A DNA stretch of 64,000 bases from a virus, in the IMG/VR virus record IMGVR_UViG_3300010354_000054, positions 34,645 to 98,644 of that record. One strand, written 5' to 3'. The position numbers and the translations under genes were made by a program. Shown here piece after piece: positions 16,974 through 64,000 of this stretch. The notes below the pieces were generated by a model that saw only the letters and a list, made by a program, of their open reading frames with translations, did no database searches and had not been told where the DNA came from. Position 1 is the stretch's first letter; each line of letters begins with the position of its first letter.

Positions 16974-17326
16974 GATCTTCTCTTGACAGCAGAAATGAAC
17001 ACATCACCGAATACCGTTCCATTCATCATAGTTGCCAACAAAGCCAACTCTTTTGTCGGTATTTCAGTCGTTGTTGCTCGCTTCGTGAAGATTGAGGGAT
17101 CTAACTCCTGGTTTCCGTTAACTGTTACGCTGTCATAATACATCTGAGAAAGAAGATTGACCGATTCATTGCTAAGTGGAGTTTGTGTCTCTTTGACAAG
17201 TTCAGATATGGTGTAAAAAATGTCTCCATAAATTTCCATACACGTAGACTTATCAAATTTCTGCTCTAGCCTTCTTTGAAGTCTATCATTTAAAAGTTTA
17301 GTAACTGCTTCGTGTATGCTTTTCAT
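16970..17326 (-). CDS. Small helical protein of unknown function
   Basis: 118 residues with no recognised family. The N-terminal half is helical (MKSIHEAVTKLLNDRLQRRL...), followed by SELVKETQTPLSNESVNLLS, and the C-terminus carries a ALLATMMNGTVFGDVFISAV stretch that is not long enough to be a clear membrane span. It is flanked by two GT4 transferase genes, one base away from the upstream one and overlapping the next by 4 bp. It could be a chaperone or partner of one of these enzymes. Real by gene packing and codon use. Confidence 0.55.
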   Translation of the reverse strand: MKSIHEAVTKLLNDRLQRRLEQKFDKSTCMEIYGDIFYTISELVKETQTPLSNESVNLLSQMYYDSVTVNGNQELDPSIFTKRATTTEIPTKELALLATMMNGTVFGDVFISAVKRRS

Positions 17327-24062: not shown

Positions 24063-24311
24063 ATGTCAGAAATATATGGACAACTCGAGTCTGAAAAACT
24101 CGCAGCTGACAATAAAGTAGCACACGAAATCGTTAGAGAGATAAACCAATTTGGCATAAACGATCGCCAGAGATGGCTAGTGATTTACTACTTGGCTCTT
24201 GAACTAGAGAACGTGGACGAAATGAAAGAACTAACAGGCTATGTCAAGGAGACTAAGGGTAAAGACCTTTTCATCTCCAGAATCTACGGCGCAAGCGAAG
24301 GAGACGAGTGA
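24063..24311 (+). CDS. Small acidic helical protein next to clpP
   Basis: 82 residues, mostly helical: ESEKLAADNKVAHEIVREIN, then DRQRWLVIYYLALELENVDE, ending in acidic EGDE. No family recognised. Its stop overlaps the start of the ClpP-like gene (TGATG), so it may be translationally coupled to it and act as an adaptor or regulator of that protease; this is inference from position only. Confidence 0.55.
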   Translation: MSEIYGQLESEKLAADNKVAHEIVREINQFGINDRQRWLVIYYLALELENVDEMKELTGYVKETKGKDLFISRIYGASEGDE

Positions 24312-24904
24312 TGGGAAGATCTGTAACAAATTCAGCAAAAATTTCTAAGAATAACAGCGAAGAGTCCTCTACTACGATGGGGATAGCAATGGGAGACTCG
24401 CAGCGCCTCGTTGTTCTCCACGGAGATGTCAATGAGGCATCGATCTCACTCGTGGTAGCTCAGTTACTCCATTTAGCATCTCAAAACCATAAGCCTATCC
24501 ATCTAGTTATCTCTACGTACGGCGGATCAGTGGACGAGATGTTTACTCTCTATGACACTATTAAGTTTCTCCCGTGCCCAGTCCATACCATTGCTCTTGG
24601 CAAAGTTATGAGTGCAGGAGTTCTACTTCTCGCCACTGGAGCTAAGGGTAAGAGGATGATTGGACGTAATGCTCGTGTGATGATCCATCCCATCTCCGGA
24701 GGAGTCGGAGGTAACGTATTCGAGGTCATTAACGAGTCTAAGGAGCACAAGCGCATGCAGGACCAGATGGTTGATGCAATTGTTCGTGAAACAAAGGCTT
24801 CAAAGACTGAGATCGAAAAGATCATGAAGTCTGGACATGACTTCTACCTCCTTCCGGACCAAGCTGTTAAGCTTGGTATTGTCGACAAGATCATTGGTGA
24901 CTGA
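24311..24904 (+). CDS. clpP: ClpP-like serine protease
   Basis: 197 residues, normal ClpP length, from the ATG at 24311. HLVISTYGGSVDEMFTLYDT is the oxyanion/handle segment, LGKVMSAGVLLLATGAKGKR contains the nucleophile serine, ARVMIHPISGG the histidine, and SGHDFYLLPDQAVKLGIVDK the aspartate, so the triad is complete. A Ser/Asn-rich N-terminus of about 25 residues replaces the usual processed peptide. It may form a proteolytic chamber with a host Clp ATPase or act on phage proteins. The head module has a separate gp21-like protease, so this need not be the maturation enzyme. Confidence 0.88.
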   Translation: MGRSVTNSAKISKNNSEESSTTMGIAMGDSQRLVVLHGDVNEASISLVVAQLLHLASQNHKPIHLVISTYGGSVDEMFTLYDTIKFLPCPVHTIALGKVMSAGVLLLATGAKGKRMIGRNARVMIHPISGGVGGNVFEVINESKEHKRMQDQMVDAIVRETKASKTEIEKIMKSGHDFYLLPDQAVKLGIVDKIIGD

Positions 24905-44674: not shown

Positions 44675-45664
44675 GTGGCCGTATTCAGTATCAGTGATAA
44701 ACTTCTGTTCATCGAGTCAGTCTTCGGCAAGGGTCACCTCGCTGGAAACGGAAAGAACTTCGATGTTCGGTGTCCCATCTGTGCTCCCTCCGATGTCACG
44801 AAGAAGAAGCTGGCAATCAAGACAGATGATGACAGGTGTCACTGCTGGGTGTGTGGATTCAAGGCGAGGAATCTCGTACCTCTCATCCGCAAGTACGGTA
44901 CGCCTGGACAACTAGCGAAGTACAAGGAGGTCCTCGGTATCGCCGATGGTGGTTCAGGCGAACTGGTCACCGGTGAGAAGGTTGAGGAACAGCGTCTCGA
45001 GCTACCAAAGGACTTCTGTCTCCTCCCACTCTCCAATCAGAACGATCCCGATGTGAAGGCAATGTGGCGATACCTCTTCGGACGAGGTCTCACCGAGAAG
45101 GACGCGTGGTACTTCAAGCTCGGCATTTCTAACGAACCCCGATGGAAGAGGCGTGTGATCATGCCATCCTTTAACTTCAAAGGTGAACTCAACTATTTCA
45201 CCGCGAGGGCGATCGACAAGGACAGACGACCCAAGTACGACAACCCTGAGGTGGACAAGAACCCCATTATCTTCAACGAGATCAACATCGACTGGACGAA
45301 GAGATTGGCATTGGTGGAGGGTCCCTTCGACCTCGTCAAGTGCCCGGACAACACCACAGCTCTCCTCGGTTCTGACCTGGATGAGCGCCACGAACTCTTC
45401 AATCGCATCCTCCTAAACAACACACCAGTCGCCCTCGCACTGGATGGAGACATGTGGGATAGGAAGACTCCCAAGATAGCGAAGAAACTCCAGGAGTACG
45501 ATGTGGATGTCCAGATCGTGGATGTTCGCCCCTGGGGAGATCCTGGCTCCATGTCTCGTGCGGAGTTCGAGATAGCCTTGTCCGAGGCGCGCTATCTCGA
45601 CTGGAACGATAACTTTCTTATCAAGCTCAATAGGGTTGTTAGTACTTCTTCACTTGGAATTTGA
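44675..45664 (+). CDS. DnaG/gp61-type DNA primase
   Basis: 329 residues from a GTG start. FDVRCPICAPSDVTKKKLAI, then CHCWVCGFKARNLVPLIRKY, gives the CHC2-type zinc site. A TOPRIM region follows: LALVEGPFDLVKCPDNTTAL with the catalytic Glu, and PVALALDGDMWDRKTPKIAK with the DxD. A helicase-binding domain of DnaG is missing, so it is closer to T4 gp61 in size. The start codon lies in the loop of a small hairpin (ATACGG 44662-44667, CCGTAT 44679-44684). Confidence 0.82.
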   Translation: MAVFSISDKLLFIESVFGKGHLAGNGKNFDVRCPICAPSDVTKKKLAIKTDDDRCHCWVCGFKARNLVPLIRKYGTPGQLAKYKEVLGIADGGSGELVTGEKVEEQRLELPKDFCLLPLSNQNDPDVKAMWRYLFGRGLTEKDAWYFKLGISNEPRWKRRVIMPSFNFKGELNYFTARAIDKDRRPKYDNPEVDKNPIIFNEINIDWTKRLALVEGPFDLVKCPDNTTALLGSDLDERHELFNRILLNNTPVALALDGDMWDRKTPKIAKKLQEYDVDVQIVDVRPWGDPGSMSRAEFEIALSEARYLDWNDNFLIKLNRVVSTSSLGI

Positions 45665-45696
45665 ACTTATTCTGCACATGGGGTATCATTAACCTA

Positions 45697-48600
45697 ATGC
45701 GTATTGCTCATACTGCCGACATTCATATCAGGGCTCTTTCTCGTCACGACGAGTACAGACAAGTCTTCAAGGCGTTCATAGATGATTGTAAGGCACAGAA
45801 GGTAGATCATATCTTCATCGGTGGAGACATCTTCCACACGAAGGTGACAGGAATCTCACCTGAGTACATCGAGCTCCTCACGTGGTGGTTGGAGGAGATG
45901 GCGAAGGTAGCACCCGTCCACATGGTCCTTGGTAATCACGATGGAAATCTCGTGAACCTGTCCCGCCAAGACGCTGTCACACCCATCGTGGAGGCGATGA
46001 AGAATCCGCGTGTTTTCCTCTACAAGAAGTCGGGAGTTTATAACTTCTCACCAGGATATAACTGGTGCGTTTTCTCATGCTTCGACGAGGACGGGTGGGA
46101 TGATCTTAAGCCCGTTCAAGGAGATATTAACATTGCGACTTTTCACGGTGGTGTTAAGGGTTCCTATTCTGAGACTGGCTGGGAGATTGAAGAAGATAGA
46201 ATAACGACAGACTTTTTTAAAGACTATGATTTTTGCATGCTGGGTGACATTCACAAACAGCAGTTCCTTGGCTACAGGGATGGAAAGCCGTGGATAGGCT
46301 ATCCTGGCACCCCGATTCAGCAGAATTATGCCGAAGAATTAAACCACGGATACTATCTTTGGGAAATAAATAATTCTTCTGACTGGTCTGTCGTAAATAG
46401 GCCTCTTCCGAATCCAAAGCCTTTTATTACAATTGACTGGGCAGGGAAGCTTGACAAGACGCTTGGCCTTGCCAAGGCTTGCCCTCAAGGCACTAGATTT
46501 AGGATTAGATCTAACGTTTCTCTTACACAAGATGAAGTTCATATACTTTCTGAGTCTCTTAAGACAGAGATGAATGCCTCAGAAGTAACCTATAAGATCG
46601 ATGCACAGGTTAACACTGAGATAGTAAAGACTAGCACAACCTCTGTTGCAAAAACAGACCTTAGATCTTCCGAAGTTATTACTAAGCTTCTGAGAGAGTA
46701 TTACTCTGAATTAAATCTCTCTGAAAAAGAGATGGAGTCACTCAGTGATACTGCAAAGTCTTATCTTAAGCAAGTTTCTACTTCTGAAGATCATGCACGC
46801 AATTCTAAGTGGTCACTCCGACGGCTTGAGTGGGACAATCTCTTTTCTTATGGAGAAAGCAACGTTATCAATTTTGAAAAATTGAACGGCATAGTCGGAA
46901 TTTTTGGTCCCAATAGAACTGGTAAATCATCCATTGTTGGAACATTAATGTACGCACTCTTTAATGCGACTGATAGAGGTCCTATCAAGAACATTAATAT
47001 CTGCAACGTCAGAAAGGACTATTGCTCAGCAAGAGCTATTCTTGATCACAATGGTTCCACCTACGTGATTGAAAGGCAGACGGCAAAGAACACTAATAAG
47101 AAAGGTGTTGTCAGCGCTTCTACTTCTCTAAATCTTTTTAGAATGAGAGAAGATGAAGAAGACATGGACGATCTCTGCGGAGAGCAAAGAAATGATACAG
47201 AGAAGACCATAAGAACTCTTCTAGGAATTTCTGATGATTTTTTAATAACGTCTTTGTCAGCTCAAGGAGAAACTAACATCTTTCTCTCTCAGGGCTCTAC
47301 AAAGAGAAGATCTATTCTTACGAAGTTTCTTGACCTCGATGTGTTCGATAGAATGCATGAGCTTTCTTCGAAAGAAGTTTCATCTGTTAAATCACAGTTA
47401 AAAAACTTCCCAGACAGGAACTGGTCTGAATTGAAGTCTTCTAATGAGGCGCTTGCCAAAGAAAATGAAGATAAAATAAATCGACTTACTGACATGATTT
47501 CTGAGAATCAGACGTCTCTCACTCTCTTGAAGTCTGAACTCTTAAAGCACAATGCAACTCCCATAACAAAAGAAGACGTTGTATCTCAGGAGAGAAGAGT
47601 AACTTCTTTGGAGAAAAAAGCTGAAGATTGTCTTGGAAGTATAAGCTCACTCGAGCAAGAGATCCATTCCTTGCAGGAGAAGGTCGATGCACTTCAGCAG
47701 ATTATCGACTCAATAGACGTCAATGACTTAAAGGATCGTCAAGATACACAGCGCAAATTGCAGACTGCAATTTCAGAGCTTAGACATATTCATGAAAAAG
47801 AAGAGACAATCCTTTCGCAGCAGAAGAAATCTTTAGTCATTTTGGATGAAGTTCCTTGTGGAGACAATTATCCAACGTGCAAGTTCATAAAAGACGCACA
47901 CGTTAACAAGAATTATCTTCCTGATCAAATCAAAAAAGTTTCAAAGGCTTTAAGCGTCTTAGAGGAGGCACGAGCCTCTCTTGCTAGCGTCGAAGACAAT
48001 ACTATTGCTGAGAAAATATCGAAGTACGAAAAAGCTTCTCAGCTGTCGGACAAGATGAAACTTGAAATTTCAAAGAAAGAGACAGAGATAGCAAAGATCA
48101 AGACAGCTTGTGATTCTTGTCAAACATTGCTTGATGAGGCAAAGAAGAAGCTAGAGAATCTACGACTTTCACTCGATAATGATGTTGCAGAGGAGGTCAT
48201 CTCTATCAGAGATAAGATAACTGAGCTTTCACAACTATCTAGCTTGTATGACACTCAAAAGATAGAGGCTGCTGCCAAGCTCGGAAAAATACAATCCAGC
48301 ATTGAAAAACTGGAAGAAGAGAAGAAGACTAGAGATTTACTACTTCAAAGCGTTAGAATGCATGAATTAATTGCAAATGCATTTTCTAAGAAAGGAATTC
48401 CTCTTCTTGTCACTAAATCACAGCTTCCGCTTATCAATGCAGAGGTTTCAAAAATCTTGCAAGGAATTGTTGATTTTACTATAGAGCTAGAATCTGATGA
48501 GGACACAGATTCACTAGAGATTTACATTAATTACGGTGATTCAAGAAGAATCATAGAGCTTTGCTCAGGCATGGAAAAAACAATTTCTGCAATTGCTCTG

Positions 48601-48837
48601 AGAGTTGCAATGATCAACGTTTCTTCTTTGCCTAAGTCCGACTTTTTTATAATCGATGAAGGATTTGGAACTTTGGATAGTGCAGGCGTTGAAGCGTGTA
48701 GTAGATTTTTAGCCTCTCTAAAGAAATATTTTAAGACAGTTATCGTTATCACTCACGTCGATGGAATCAAAGACAGCGCAGATCATATTCTGGAAATTAC
48801 TAAGTCAGAAAAAGACTCAAGGATAGAATTTCTATGA
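45697..48837 (+). CDS. Fused SbcD-SbcC (Mre11-Rad50; T4 gp47-gp46) recombination nuclease
   Basis: About 1046 residues from the ATG at 45697; a TTG at 45661 is rejected. Residues 1-240 are a Mre11-type phosphoesterase (MRIAHTADIHIRALSRHDEY; FIGGDIFHTK; VLGNHDGNL; CMLGDIHKQQ). From about 368 an SbcC/Rad50 ATPase begins: WDNLFSYGESNVINFEKLNG, GIFGPNRTGKSSIV (Walker A), long coiled coils, a hook-like CGDNYPTC near 720, and the end LCSGMEKTISAIALRVAM and FFIIDEGFGTLD (signature, Walker B). In T4 these are two genes; here the DNA-end nuclease and its ATPase are one chain. Composition changes inside the first 450 bases. Confidence 0.88.
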   Translation: MRIAHTADIHIRALSRHDEYRQVFKAFIDDCKAQKVDHIFIGGDIFHTKVTGISPEYIELLTWWLEEMAKVAPVHMVLGNHDGNLVNLSRQDAVTPIVEAMKNPRVFLYKKSGVYNFSPGYNWCVFSCFDEDGWDDLKPVQGDINIATFHGGVKGSYSETGWEIEEDRITTDFFKDYDFCMLGDIHKQQFLGYRDGKPWIGYPGTPIQQNYAEELNHGYYLWEINNSSDWSVVNRPLPNPKPFITIDWAGKLDKTLGLAKACPQGTRFRIRSNVSLTQDEVHILSESLKTEMNASEVTYKIDAQVNTEIVKTSTTSVAKTDLRSSEVITKLLREYYSELNLSEKEMESLSDTAKSYLKQVSTSEDHARNSKWSLRRLEWDNLFSYGESNVINFEKLNGIVGIFGPNRTGKSSIVGTLMYALFNATDRGPIKNINICNVRKDYCSARAILDHNGSTYVIERQTAKNTNKKGVVSASTSLNLFRMREDEEDMDDLCGEQRNDTEKTIRTLLGISDDFLITSLSAQGETNIFLSQGSTKRRSILTKFLDLDVFDRMHELSSKEVSSVKSQLKNFPDRNWSELKSSNEALAKENEDKINRLTDMISENQTSLTLLKSELLKHNATPITKEDVVSQERRVTSLEKKAEDCLGSISSLEQEIHSLQEKVDALQQIIDSIDVNDLKDRQDTQRKLQTAISELRHIHEKEETILSQQKKSLVILDEVPCGDNYPTCKFIKDAHVNKNYLPDQIKKVSKALSVLEEARASLASVEDNTIAEKISKYEKASQLSDKMKLEISKKETEIAKIKTACDSCQTLLDEAKKKLENLRLSLDNDVAEEVISIRDKITELSQLSSLYDTQKIEAAAKLGKIQSSIEKLEEEKKTRDLLLQSVRMHELIANAFSKKGIPLLVTKSQLPLINAEVSKILQGIVDFTIELESDEDTDSLEIYINYGDSRRIIELCSGMEKTISAIALRVAMINVSSLPKSDFFIIDEGFGTLDSAGVEACSRFLASLKKYFKTVIVITHVDGIKDSADHILEITKSEKDSRIEFL

Positions 48838-58458: not shown

Positions 58459-60312
58459 ATGTCAAAGCACTTTAGTCTTGAACAACTCGCTCAGGGCATC
58501 CGCGAGAAGCACGTCGGAGCCGAGCGCGCACGTCTTACAGAGAAGTGGAGCCGCACAGGACTCCTCCGTGGCCTCGACGGCACACGCCGCGAGGTTATGG
58601 CCCAGCTCCTCGAGAACCAGGCAGCTCAGGTCCTCAAGGAGAGCAACGCTCTCTCGAGCGGCGGTGGAAACCTCGCCGGTTCGGGTCAGATCCAGGGCTT
58701 CTCGAACATCGCCTTCCCGATCGTTCGCAGAGTCTTCGGCGGTCTCGTTGCCAACGAGCTCGTCTCGATCCAGCCAATGAGCCTCCCATCGGGACTCATC
58801 TTCTATCTCGACTACACCTACGGTTCGAACGTCGGAACACCAGCTGGTGAGACAGGTTCGACATACACACGCGGACAGTCGCTCTACAACAACCCGACCG
58901 GCAAAGGCGTCCAGAGCGGATCGCTCGCCACCGGTGGTATGTACGACCTCGTCAACACAGGCTACAGCCGCGTGACAGGTTCTGCAACAGGCCTCACCTT
59001 CACGGTCGGTGCTTGGGGCGGAGTCAACGGCGACACCTGGGCAGCTAACCTCGAAGTTTCTTCTGCTGCAATGTTCTCGGGATCGAACGCTCGCTTCGCC
59101 GAGTTCGACGGTCAGGTCGAGAACGCTCTCGCAAACAACGACCTCGACATGGCCTTCGCAATCGTCGATATTAGCGGTCTTTCGAACATGGACAAGCTTG
59201 CTGTCAACCAGCTCGCTCTCTTCGCTGGTGTCACAAATGCGACAGCTTGGGGAGAGACATATCAGGGTGGCAATGGAGTCCTCAACCTCCGTCGCCTCAA
59301 CAAGCGCGGTAACTGGAGCGGTTCGGTCTTCACCCCAGACGCACTCAACGGCACACACGTCCTCACGGTCGTCAAGGGCGCCAACGGTGCAGCTCTTTCA
59401 GCCGGTGCTGCAGCTGGTACAGTTTCGTACTCGCTCTCGTCAGCCCTCTCGGTCGACGGAAACAGCGGCGCCACAGTCACAGTCCCCTCGTTCGAGTCGG
59501 ACTTCGGTGCAACACCAGCCCCAGTGATCCCTGAGATCGACATCAAGATCGAGGCCATCAGCATCACAGCTGAGACCCGTAAGCTCCGCGCCAAGTGGTC
59601 GCCGGAACTCGCACAGGACCTCAACGCCTATCACTCGATGGACGCTGAAGTCGAGCTCACATCGATCCTCTCGGAGCAGATCGCCCTCGAAATCGACCGC
59701 GAGATCCTCAACGACCTCGTGTCGCAGGCCAACGGCGCCAACTACTACTGGAGCCGCTCGCCAGGTCGCTTCGTTAACAAGGTGACAGGCGCTCGCCAGG
59801 CACTCACAGACGTGTACCAGATCGGACCACAGTTCACAGGTACAGTTCGCGAGTGGTACGAGACACTCATCGAGACGATCATCGACGTCGCGAACACCAT
59901 CCACCGCAAGACGCTCCGCGGATCGGCAAACTTCCTCGTCACAGGACCAGACGTTTGCACAATCCTCGAGGCCTCGGTCCTCTACAAGCCTAAGTTCTCG
60001 CTCGACGGCGAGGGCCAGGTCGGATCGCCCTTCACCATCGGCGCAGAGGCAGTCGGTACCCTCTCGAACCGCTTCACGGTCTATAAGGATCCTTACTTCT
60101 CACGTAACAAGATCCTCGTCGGCTACAAGGGCGGCAGCTACCTCGAGACAGGCTACGTCTACGCTCCATACGTCCCACTCATCGTCACACCGACGATCTT
60201 CGCTCCTGAGGACTTCACACCTCGCAAGGGCGTCATGACCCGCTACGGTAAGAAGACCGTTCGCTCGGACTTCTACGGAACAGTCACCGTCCTCGACATG
60301 AACGTTATCTGA
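58459..60312 (+). CDS. Major capsid protein (T4 gp23-like)
   Basis: 617 residues. LKE at 59-61 followed by SNALSSGGGN is the likely gp21-type cleavage, nearly the T4 position (65). Then IVRRVFGGLVANELVSIQPM and LPSGLIFYLDYTYGS give the HK97-fold N-arm, KLRAKWSPELAQDLNAYHSM the spine helix, and VGYKGGSYLETGYVYAPYVP with RKGVMTRYGKKTVRSDFYGT the family C-terminus. It is about 100 residues longer than T4 gp23, with an extra beta-rich, Gly/Ala-rich segment around 170-350. Codon use is extreme (TCG for Ser, CTC for Leu, CGC for Arg). AGGAGA lies before the ATG. Confidence 0.95.
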   Translation: MSKHFSLEQLAQGIREKHVGAERARLTEKWSRTGLLRGLDGTRREVMAQLLENQAAQVLKESNALSSGGGNLAGSGQIQGFSNIAFPIVRRVFGGLVANELVSIQPMSLPSGLIFYLDYTYGSNVGTPAGETGSTYTRGQSLYNNPTGKGVQSGSLATGGMYDLVNTGYSRVTGSATGLTFTVGAWGGVNGDTWAANLEVSSAAMFSGSNARFAEFDGQVENALANNDLDMAFAIVDISGLSNMDKLAVNQLALFAGVTNATAWGETYQGGNGVLNLRRLNKRGNWSGSVFTPDALNGTHVLTVVKGANGAALSAGAAAGTVSYSLSSALSVDGNSGATVTVPSFESDFGATPAPVIPEIDIKIEAISITAETRKLRAKWSPELAQDLNAYHSMDAEVELTSILSEQIALEIDREILNDLVSQANGANYYWSRSPGRFVNKVTGARQALTDVYQIGPQFTGTVREWYETLIETIIDVANTIHRKTLRGSANFLVTGPDVCTILEASVLYKPKFSLDGEGQVGSPFTIGAEAVGTLSNRFTVYKDPYFSRNKILVGYKGGSYLETGYVYAPYVPLIVTPTIFAPEDFTPRKGVMTRYGKKTVRSDFYGTVTVLDMNVI

Positions 60313-62793: not shown

Positions 62794-63060
62794 ATGGCAA
62801 GCAAGAAGAACACCGTTTCGCAGAACAAGAACGCATCGATTCGTACCCGCGAGGACCGCAAGGGAAACCTTCGCACGGAGACTTTCCGTCGCGATGAAGA
62901 CAGTGTTAACGTGACAGTCAGCACTGATCCACGCAATGATTCGACTCGTCTCTCGATCTATACGTCGGAAGGCAATACTCTTCGGTTCGACGGTCGAACG
63001 GCTCGCACTCTTTATCGTACGCTTCAGAAGCACTATCAGGCGACAGACAAGTCTTACTGA
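62794..63060 (+). CDS. Small basic protein of unknown function
   Basis: 88 residues. The start is Lys/Asn/Arg-rich (SKKNTVSQNKNASIRTREDR), then a beta-rich part (VNVTVSTDPRNDSTRLSIYT; SEGNTLRFDGRTARTLYRTL). Charge and fold suggest nucleic-acid binding. It has a strong ribosome binding site and an intrinsic terminator close behind it, and its codon use is like that of the capsid gene (TCG, CGC), so it is probably an abundant product. Confidence 0.6.
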   Translation: MASKKNTVSQNKNASIRTREDRKGNLRTETFRRDEDSVNVTVSTDPRNDSTRLSIYTSEGNTLRFDGRTARTLYRTLQKHYQATDKSY

Positions 63061-63078
63061 TTATTGATGAAATCATAG

Positions 63079-63104
63079 GGGAGGCCGAAAGGCCTCCCTT
63101 TTTT
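63079..63104 (+). terminator. Intrinsic terminator
   Basis: GGGAGGCC (63079-63086), GAAA loop, GGCCTCCC (63091-63098), then six T. A GNRA tetraloop gives high stability. It lies 18 bases after the stop of the small basic gene and separates it from the acidic-protein gene at 63123. Confidence 0.9.
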
Positions 63105-63122: not shown

Positions 63123-63692
63123 ATGAAAATCGACAAGCCCGATGCTCTAATGCTACATTCTGTTCTTTTTGCGTATGTAAATTCTAACGTTAATCTAGAT
63201 TTTGTTGACGTAGAACATCTACAGTCTTTACAAGAGCGCTTGCAAGATTTTATCACAGACTCTCAAGAAGATTGTCAAGAAGCATCAGACACAGAAGAAG
63301 ATTACGACGAATCTGATGATGATGATGATGATGATTATGATGATGAAGAGAGCGAGGAAGAGGAAGAGGAAGAGGAGGAAGATCCTATTGATGTCTTCGT
63401 AGCTGCAAAAGATGCAGCTGATCTCTCGCCATTAAGTGTAGTCTCTCCTGATGGATCTACAGTATCTCTCGAATTCGAATATGTCGGAGAAGATGACATG
63501 GTAGATGCTCTAATAGATGAGGGAACAGTCATCGTAGACTCAGTTGTAAAAGTAGTTGTCGATGAAAAGAGCGTATCTCTGTATGACGGAGAGGAATGGC
63601 ACGACTTTAAGGTTGTAAAACTTTCTAAGTACTGGAAGAGATTCTTCCCGTCTGGTCAGGTCGTCGGATTCTCAACGGGAGAGAAAGAATGA
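63123..63692 (+). CDS. Highly acidic protein with Asp/Glu run
   Basis: 189 residues. A short folded start (DALMLHSVLFAYVNSNVNLD) leads to an Asp/Glu run of about 35 residues (ESDDDDDDDYDDEESEEEEE and on), then a beta-rich region (VVSPDGSTVSLEFEYVGEDD; VIVDSVVKVVVDEKSVSLYD). The acid run could mimic DNA or bind basic proteins. It has no recognised family. GGAGAA precedes the ATG; its stop overlaps the next start. Confidence 0.6.
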   Translation: MKIDKPDALMLHSVLFAYVNSNVNLDFVDVEHLQSLQERLQDFITDSQEDCQEASDTEEDYDESDDDDDDDYDDEESEEEEEEEEEDPIDVFVAAKDAADLSPLSVVSPDGSTVSLEFEYVGEDDMVDALIDEGTVIVDSVVKVVVDEKSVSLYDGEEWHDFKVVKLSKYWKRFFPSGQVVGFSTGEKE

Positions 63693-63964
63693 ACATTTCT
63701 TTCGATCCACACGAACTTCTCCACACCTTTGAGCTCCTCACAAAGAACCAAATGCTCTTCCCCGAGGACGACGAGAAGCTTCTCAATAAGTTCAGGACAG
63801 GAATCCTCATGGCTTTGAGCAAGCTACACGACGAAGACGTTGCATCGTCTTTCCAGGCATGGGAGGAGATGCAAGCTAAGAAGATTAAGGATCTTGAGCA
63901 ACAGAACGAGGAAGTGATCAAAGGCATGCCAAAAACGAAGGAGGAAGCTTCTCCCAAGAAGTAA
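63689..63964 (+). CDS. Small helical protein upstream of tmRNA
   Basis: 91 residues, mainly helical and charged: HELLHTFELLTKNQMLFPED, KLLNKFRTGILMALSKLHDE and QAWEEMQAKKIKDLEQQNEE, with a KKEEASPKK-type tail. No recognised family. It overlaps the acidic-protein gene by 4 bp (ATGA) and ends six bases before the tmRNA gene, so tmRNA is probably cut from the same transcript. Confidence 0.55.
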   Translation: MNISFDPHELLHTFELLTKNQMLFPEDDEKLLNKFRTGILMALSKLHDEDVASSFQAWEEMQAKKIKDLEQQNEEVIKGMPKTKEEASPKK

Positions 63965-63969
63965 GATTT

Positions 63970-64000
63970 GGGGGTGTAAAGGTTTCGACGGCGCACAGAA
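63970..64000 (+). ncRNA. ssrA: tmRNA gene, 5' end only
   Basis: The last 31 bases begin GGGGGTGTAAAGGTTTCGAC, followed by GG. This is the tmRNA 5' consensus: seven-base acceptor strand GGGGGTG, a short D-loop-like stretch and the GGTTTCGACGG block that marks nearly all bacterial tmRNAs. In tmRNA this part pairs with the 3' end to make the tRNA-like half. The rest, including the tag-reading frame, lies beyond the window. No tRNA genes were recognised upstream. Confidence 0.85.

Follow-up and report, generated by a model that had tools for sequence, protein, structure and literature searches.

The window analysed here is a stretch of 64,000 nucleotides (positions 34645-98644 of a 98,644-bp IMG/VR record), and its base 64000 is also the end of that record. 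A T4-type capsid gene lies near its right end, followed by several small ORFs and, on the last 31 bases, by a match to the start of tmRNA. The features discussed below are the following, where L005 and L006 denote the loci of two relatives, and G000-G002 the records of the window phage and its two closest relatives:

24308-24904, plus strand: ClpP-like protease (PF00574, 6e-41), with the Ser-His-Asp positions intact in an alignment to solved ClpP
58459-60312, plus strand: T4-type major head protein gene (phrog_138, 1.9e-75)
62794-63060, plus strand: 88-aa ORF, a lineage marker upstream of the tmRNA site (100% to G001, 85% to G002, 37-69% to others)
63077-63100, plus strand: terminator-like hairpin upstream of the 189-aa ORF (consensus match only)
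63123-63692, plus strand: 189-aa acidic ORF, syntenic in relatives, with a 4-base overlap with the 91-aa ORF
63689-63964, plus strand: 91-aa ORF (p91), directly upstream of the tmRNA (95% and 66% identity to L005 and L006, respectively)
63970-64000, plus strand: tmRNA gene (ssrA), first 31 bases (RF00023, E 1.2e-5; 31/31 identity to the L005 tmRNA)

The terminal bases, GGGGGTGTAAAGGTTTCGACGGCGCACAGAA, align by cmscan to positions 1-31 of Rfam RF00023 with 19.5 bits, which agrees with the resemblance to the tmRNA 5' consensus reported in the earlier note. The match is flagged as 3'-truncated; its score lies below the curated cut-off of 47 bits, and a gene truncated in this way could hardly score much higher. 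The conserved tmRNA 5' end (acceptor strand and GG-UUCGAC) is present, the fragment holding the 5' acceptor strand GGGGGTG, a D-loop-like part and the beginning of helix P2. It starts 5 bp past the stop of the 91-aa ORF and 3.7 kb downstream of the major head gene, on the same strand. Compared with the tmRNA 5' end of the relative, all other sites in the window stay below 20/31 identity. ARAGORN reports zero complete tmRNA and zero tRNA in the window; its silence on the tmRNA is expected, because the gene is cut. We also tried to complete the gene by joining the two ends of the record, and rejected this: no tmRNA results, and the record starts in an unrelated coding region. Since window and record end together and the tmRNA does not resume at the opposite end of the record, it is the end of the contig that truncates the gene.

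The hairpin at 63077-63100 has a counterpart in L005 (9376-9396) and, if it acts as a terminator, would separate the tmRNA transcript from that of the capsid. No match to a T4 late promoter was found near the tmRNA gene. Between capsid and tmRNA, a pyrimidine dimer DNA glycosylase gene (PF03013, 61885-62352) is placed in the opposite orientation, on the minus strand. At 45661-48837, the window also encodes a 1058-aa ORF matching an SbcD-like PHROG over residues 12-377 and an SbcC-like PHROG over residues 299-1056; judging from these matches, two recombination subunits appear to be fused in it.

The relatives were found through the 91-aa ORF, homologues of which are encoded by two IMG/VR contigs. 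In L005 (IMGVR_UViG_3300042987_003836), a complete one-piece tmRNA of 377 nt (74.4 bits) occupies the orthologous position, with the same upstream ORF and spacing as in the window; it encodes the tag ANDNGYAALAHAA followed by a stop, and its 3' end, CACCTCCACCA, includes an encoded CCA. The L006 tmRNA is likewise complete and in one piece (68.9 bits; tag ANDNGYAALALAA, then a stop), with CCA not encoded. The tRNA-like 3' half of both carries the alanine signal G3-U70, and their T-stem has a C-C mismatch or bulge. L005 agrees with the window at all 31 visible bases, and L006 at 29 of the 31. The earlier note had proposed that a phage tmRNA begins at the edge and suggested extending the sequence as a check. 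Run on the relatives, this extension yields a tag frame and a tRNA-like 3' half in L005 and L006 and a CCA end in L005; orthologues with a full gene and an ANDN-type tag ending in AA thus uphold the proposal. The 3' 90% of the window gene lies outside the record, and we infer the window phage's own tag, T-arm and CCA from these relatives.

From about 27 kb to its end, the window is colinear with both relatives, over about 36 kb or more; the block includes the terminase, portal, S77 prohead protease and major head protein. In G001, more than 30 kb of contig follow the tmRNA. This synteny, and the recurrence of the site throughout the lineage, place the gene within a phage genome and not in a host flank. 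Searches by megablast over 24 kb found no close phage relatives in GenBank. With blastn, matches of the full L005 tmRNA to phage records were confined to its final 38 bases and came from five records of Pseudomonas phages; no plasmid matched. Among 399 genomes of one phylum searched for a host source of the tmRNA, 71 gave matches, almost all confined to the conserved 3' end, and no donor or host emerged.

A scan with the major head protein gave a wider lineage of at least 80 loci. Among the loci listed, complete tmRNAs occur in 14 contigs (13 distinct sequences), always on the same strand and downstream of the head gene, at about 2 to 10 kb in locus coordinates. Every lineage tag starts with ANDN and then diverges. 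ARAGORN reads the tags ANDNSSLPLSLAA, ANDNGTAPLALAA, ANDNGIADDEVRIAA, ANDNAVAPLALAA, ANDNAFADVPRAIAA, ANDNGFADDVRLAA, ANDNGIADYALVA and ANDNDIAPLALAA, the tag start of L108/L115 being set here at the ANDN codon. For the three tmRNAs that ARAGORN misses, translation of the frame gives ANDNDYAPVALAA, ANDNGFASDLRLAA and ANDNGYVPVNLAA. The C-terminal ends vary among phages between LAA, HAA, IAA and LVA, most being LAA. One pattern scan for ANDNGYA in about 85,000 species genomes returned 10 places, none inside a tmRNA; the pattern demanded TTGC before the tag, and variants could escape it.

The acceptor stem is fully paired in all 13 lineage tmRNAs, with compensatory changes at position 5 (GC in 6, AT in 2, CG in 2, TA in 3) and position 6 (TA in 6, CG in 6, GC in 1) across the 13 sequences. 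This covariation indicates that the RNA is under selection. The single-sequence fold showed no stability beyond that of shuffles, a result that does not settle the matter where the RNA has pseudoknots. Of the 13 tmRNAs, 12 retain the alanine determinant G3-U70; in the exception, L101, G4-U69 replaces it and the discriminator base is G. This combination, noted for L137 (G434:C1:11610-11965), could alter charging by alanyl-tRNA synthetase. Non-canonical T-loops occur in 4 of the 13: GGCAGUA in L059 and L122, UGCAAU or a shifted loop in L133, and AUCAUUC in L115/L108. Loops of these types are recorded for the tmRNA genes L142 (G409), L144 (G444), L143 (G449) and L140 (G441). As controls we used 57 bacterial tmRNAs from two phyla, a 58th locus being left out; all 57 have a UUCRANN T-loop (R = A or G) and the 3:70 G-U pair. 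ARAGORN misses 3 of the 13 lineage tmRNAs, L059, L122 and L133, each with a non-canonical T-loop, and surveys relying on ARAGORN only can therefore undercount phage tmRNAs.

In the loci examined, iterated profile searches place the tmRNA downstream of one small ORF family, p91, and upstream of another, p59; tblastn missed most p91 relatives, which the iterated HMM recovered. The distance from p91 to the tmRNA ranges from 5 to 241 bp among relatives. In L064, L075 and L096 the site is empty, with p91-p59 gaps of 1, 15 and 14 bp, respectively, and no tmRNA between. The absences observed are clean and leave no remnants. L091, which is closely related to the window phage and lies on a 298-kb contig, has a tRNA-Gln (64 bits, 17086-17159) in the tmRNA site. 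On the capsid-protein tree, tmRNA presence is clustered, taking 6 changes where shuffling gives a mean of 11.8 and 0 of 500 shuffles reach so low a value; some of the absences may be false, being scored on contigs that extend just 5-6 kb downstream. For the most part the tmRNA tree agrees with the capsid tree, the exceptions being L083 and weak deep branches. This pattern fits inheritance plus repeated loss or gain at one site. The genome holding the gene is that of a T4-type phage, and the site, which follows the capsid module, is filled in relatives by a complete tmRNA or a tRNA, or is left vacant. In its gains and losses at this one position, the tmRNA behaves as an accessory gene rather than a remnant of prophage integration.

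The earlier note had also pointed to a phage ClpP that could degrade tagged proteins. The protease is indeed encoded in the window, with its family match and catalytic triad, but its partnership with the tmRNA did not hold up, ClpP occurring with or without tmRNA. We found it in 16 of the 23 lineage records searched, including the large tmRNA-lacking G414, G418, G429 and G431, and did not find it in the tmRNA-bearing 140-kb G434, possibly an incomplete record. A Clp-type AAA_2 unfoldase and tRNA genes were not found in G000-G002, nor was SmpB (PF01668) in these or in 21 further records. Host SmpB would then be needed, and host proteases are the most likely destination of tagged products; these absences are provisional, since records may be incomplete. 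Between the tmRNA and p59, a 248-aa ORF (L005 10702-11448, L006 10667-11413) has Cys pairs and a PD-(D/E)XK-like motif (IESDGIWH), with no match in Pfam, PHROG or PDB, and is perhaps a free-standing endonuclease. Of the loci tested, just G001 and G002 have it, and it was therefore rejected as a general partner of the tmRNA.

The edge could instead mark a prophage attachment site or host DNA, with a host ssrA fragment left at the border of an integrated phage or introduced by an assembly join. The contig does end there, and ssrA is a common integration site, frequently used by temperate phages (PMC12656738). We nevertheless consider this scarcely credible: in both relatives the complete tmRNA and the contig past the edge point continue, the upstream sequence is orthologous across the junction, and many relatives hold the gene at the same interior place. 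For the relatives, the colinear phage genes and the contig beyond the tmRNA refute the idea of a host flank or attachment site, and for the window phage they make it very unlikely; we reject a prophage boundary on synteny. The window gene might also be a decayed remnant of which the 5' end alone is intact, given that just 31 bases are visible and that several relatives lack the gene, their site being empty or holding a tRNA. Yet these bases are identical to an intact orthologue and the absences in relatives leave no remnants, so that we judge decay very improbable.

Two other readings accept the gene and differ on what it does. Beyond simply adding rescue capacity, a phage-specific tag may compete with the host tag and alter the fate of unfinished proteins, for instance through an HAA ending that slows degradation or through routing to the phage ClpP. 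The variable C-terminal ends behind a fixed ANDN, the lack of a bacterial tmRNA with an ANDNGYA tag in the single scan of about 85,000 species genomes and the wide spread of clpP in the lineage speak for such a role; most tags, however, end in LAA like ordinary host tags, ClpP does not track tmRNA presence, and no phage unfoldase was found in G000-G002. We regard it as possible but unlikely. It is unlikely, too, that the lineage tmRNAs as a group have diverged in function from the host tmRNA, as their rewritten degron ends, altered T-loops, one altered alanine pair and exchange or loss at the site might suggest. If they had, selection would probably have acted to escape host defence or redirect tagged proteins, not to copy the host function. 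We are confident, by comparison, that a genuine phage tmRNA of the one-piece form begins at the window edge, a gain-loss accessory that likely provides extra ribosome rescue.

This tmRNA belongs to an already known class of phage-encoded tmRNAs. The earlier note called such genes rare in phages, which is fair, although 'uncommon' is the better word: the authors describing marine phage Melnitz counted tmRNA in 402 phages, 2.3% of 18,146 genomes as reported (PMC9004378). Mycobacteriophages and Bacillus phage G are listed as carriers (PMC4131195), and tmRNAs have been reported in Streptomyces (PMC11237712), Bradyrhizobium (PMC12656738) and huge phages (PMC7162821). With the bacterial one-piece tmRNA (ssrA, RF00023), the lineage shares the 5' consensus, a tRNA-like domain with G3-U70, a tag of the form AND...AA, a length of about 370 nt and a resume codon near position 93. 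In contrast, the lineage gene is phage-carried, its ANDN tags are absent from the 57 bacterial controls read, and 4 of its 13 tmRNAs have T-loops other than UUCRANN. Mycobacteriophages Bxz1 and Wildcat, Bacillus phage G, Streptomyces BE phages and Bradyrhizobium phages likewise carry a full tmRNA in their genome. What differs from the known carriers is the T4-type head module, the fixed site near the capsid gene and a DNA match to phage records limited to the last 38 tmRNA bases. The Melnitz tmRNA is two-piece, whereas the lineage tmRNA is one-piece. Huge-phage sets of tmRNA and SmpB (PMC7162821) are similar in placing translation-rescue genes in metagenomic phages, but they include SmpB, while here neither SmpB nor, in G000-G002, tRNA genes were found. 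A 484-kb uncultured phage, LR756508.1, has a full tmRNA at 92434-92880 (L010 1501-1947), whose ARAGORN tag, GRRKPLSW, seems to be in the wrong place; a 32-aa tag ending in RKPAAV would result from an open frame that starts near position 109. At 414804-414915 (L012 1501-1612), it has a 112-nt tagless tmRNA-like element (58 bits), which resembles the tRNA-like-domain-only form of phage DS6A (PMC4131195).

From what is known of the tmRNA family, the RNA would be made during infection, probably together with the 189-aa and 91-aa ORFs, and processed by host RNases. Charged with alanine via the G3-U70 pair and bound by host SmpB, it would enter ribosomes stalled on broken mRNA and add the ANDN...AA tag, sending the product to host proteases. 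The phage would likely gain additional capacity to rescue ribosomes in the late phase of infection, as non-stop mRNAs would then be abundant owing to nucleases and to heavy translation of the capsid.

Altogether, a phage lineage with a T4-type head module joins the known tmRNA carriers. Its single site, with a tmRNA, a clean absence or a tRNA replacement, offers a natural setting for the question of how ribosome rescue benefits a phage.
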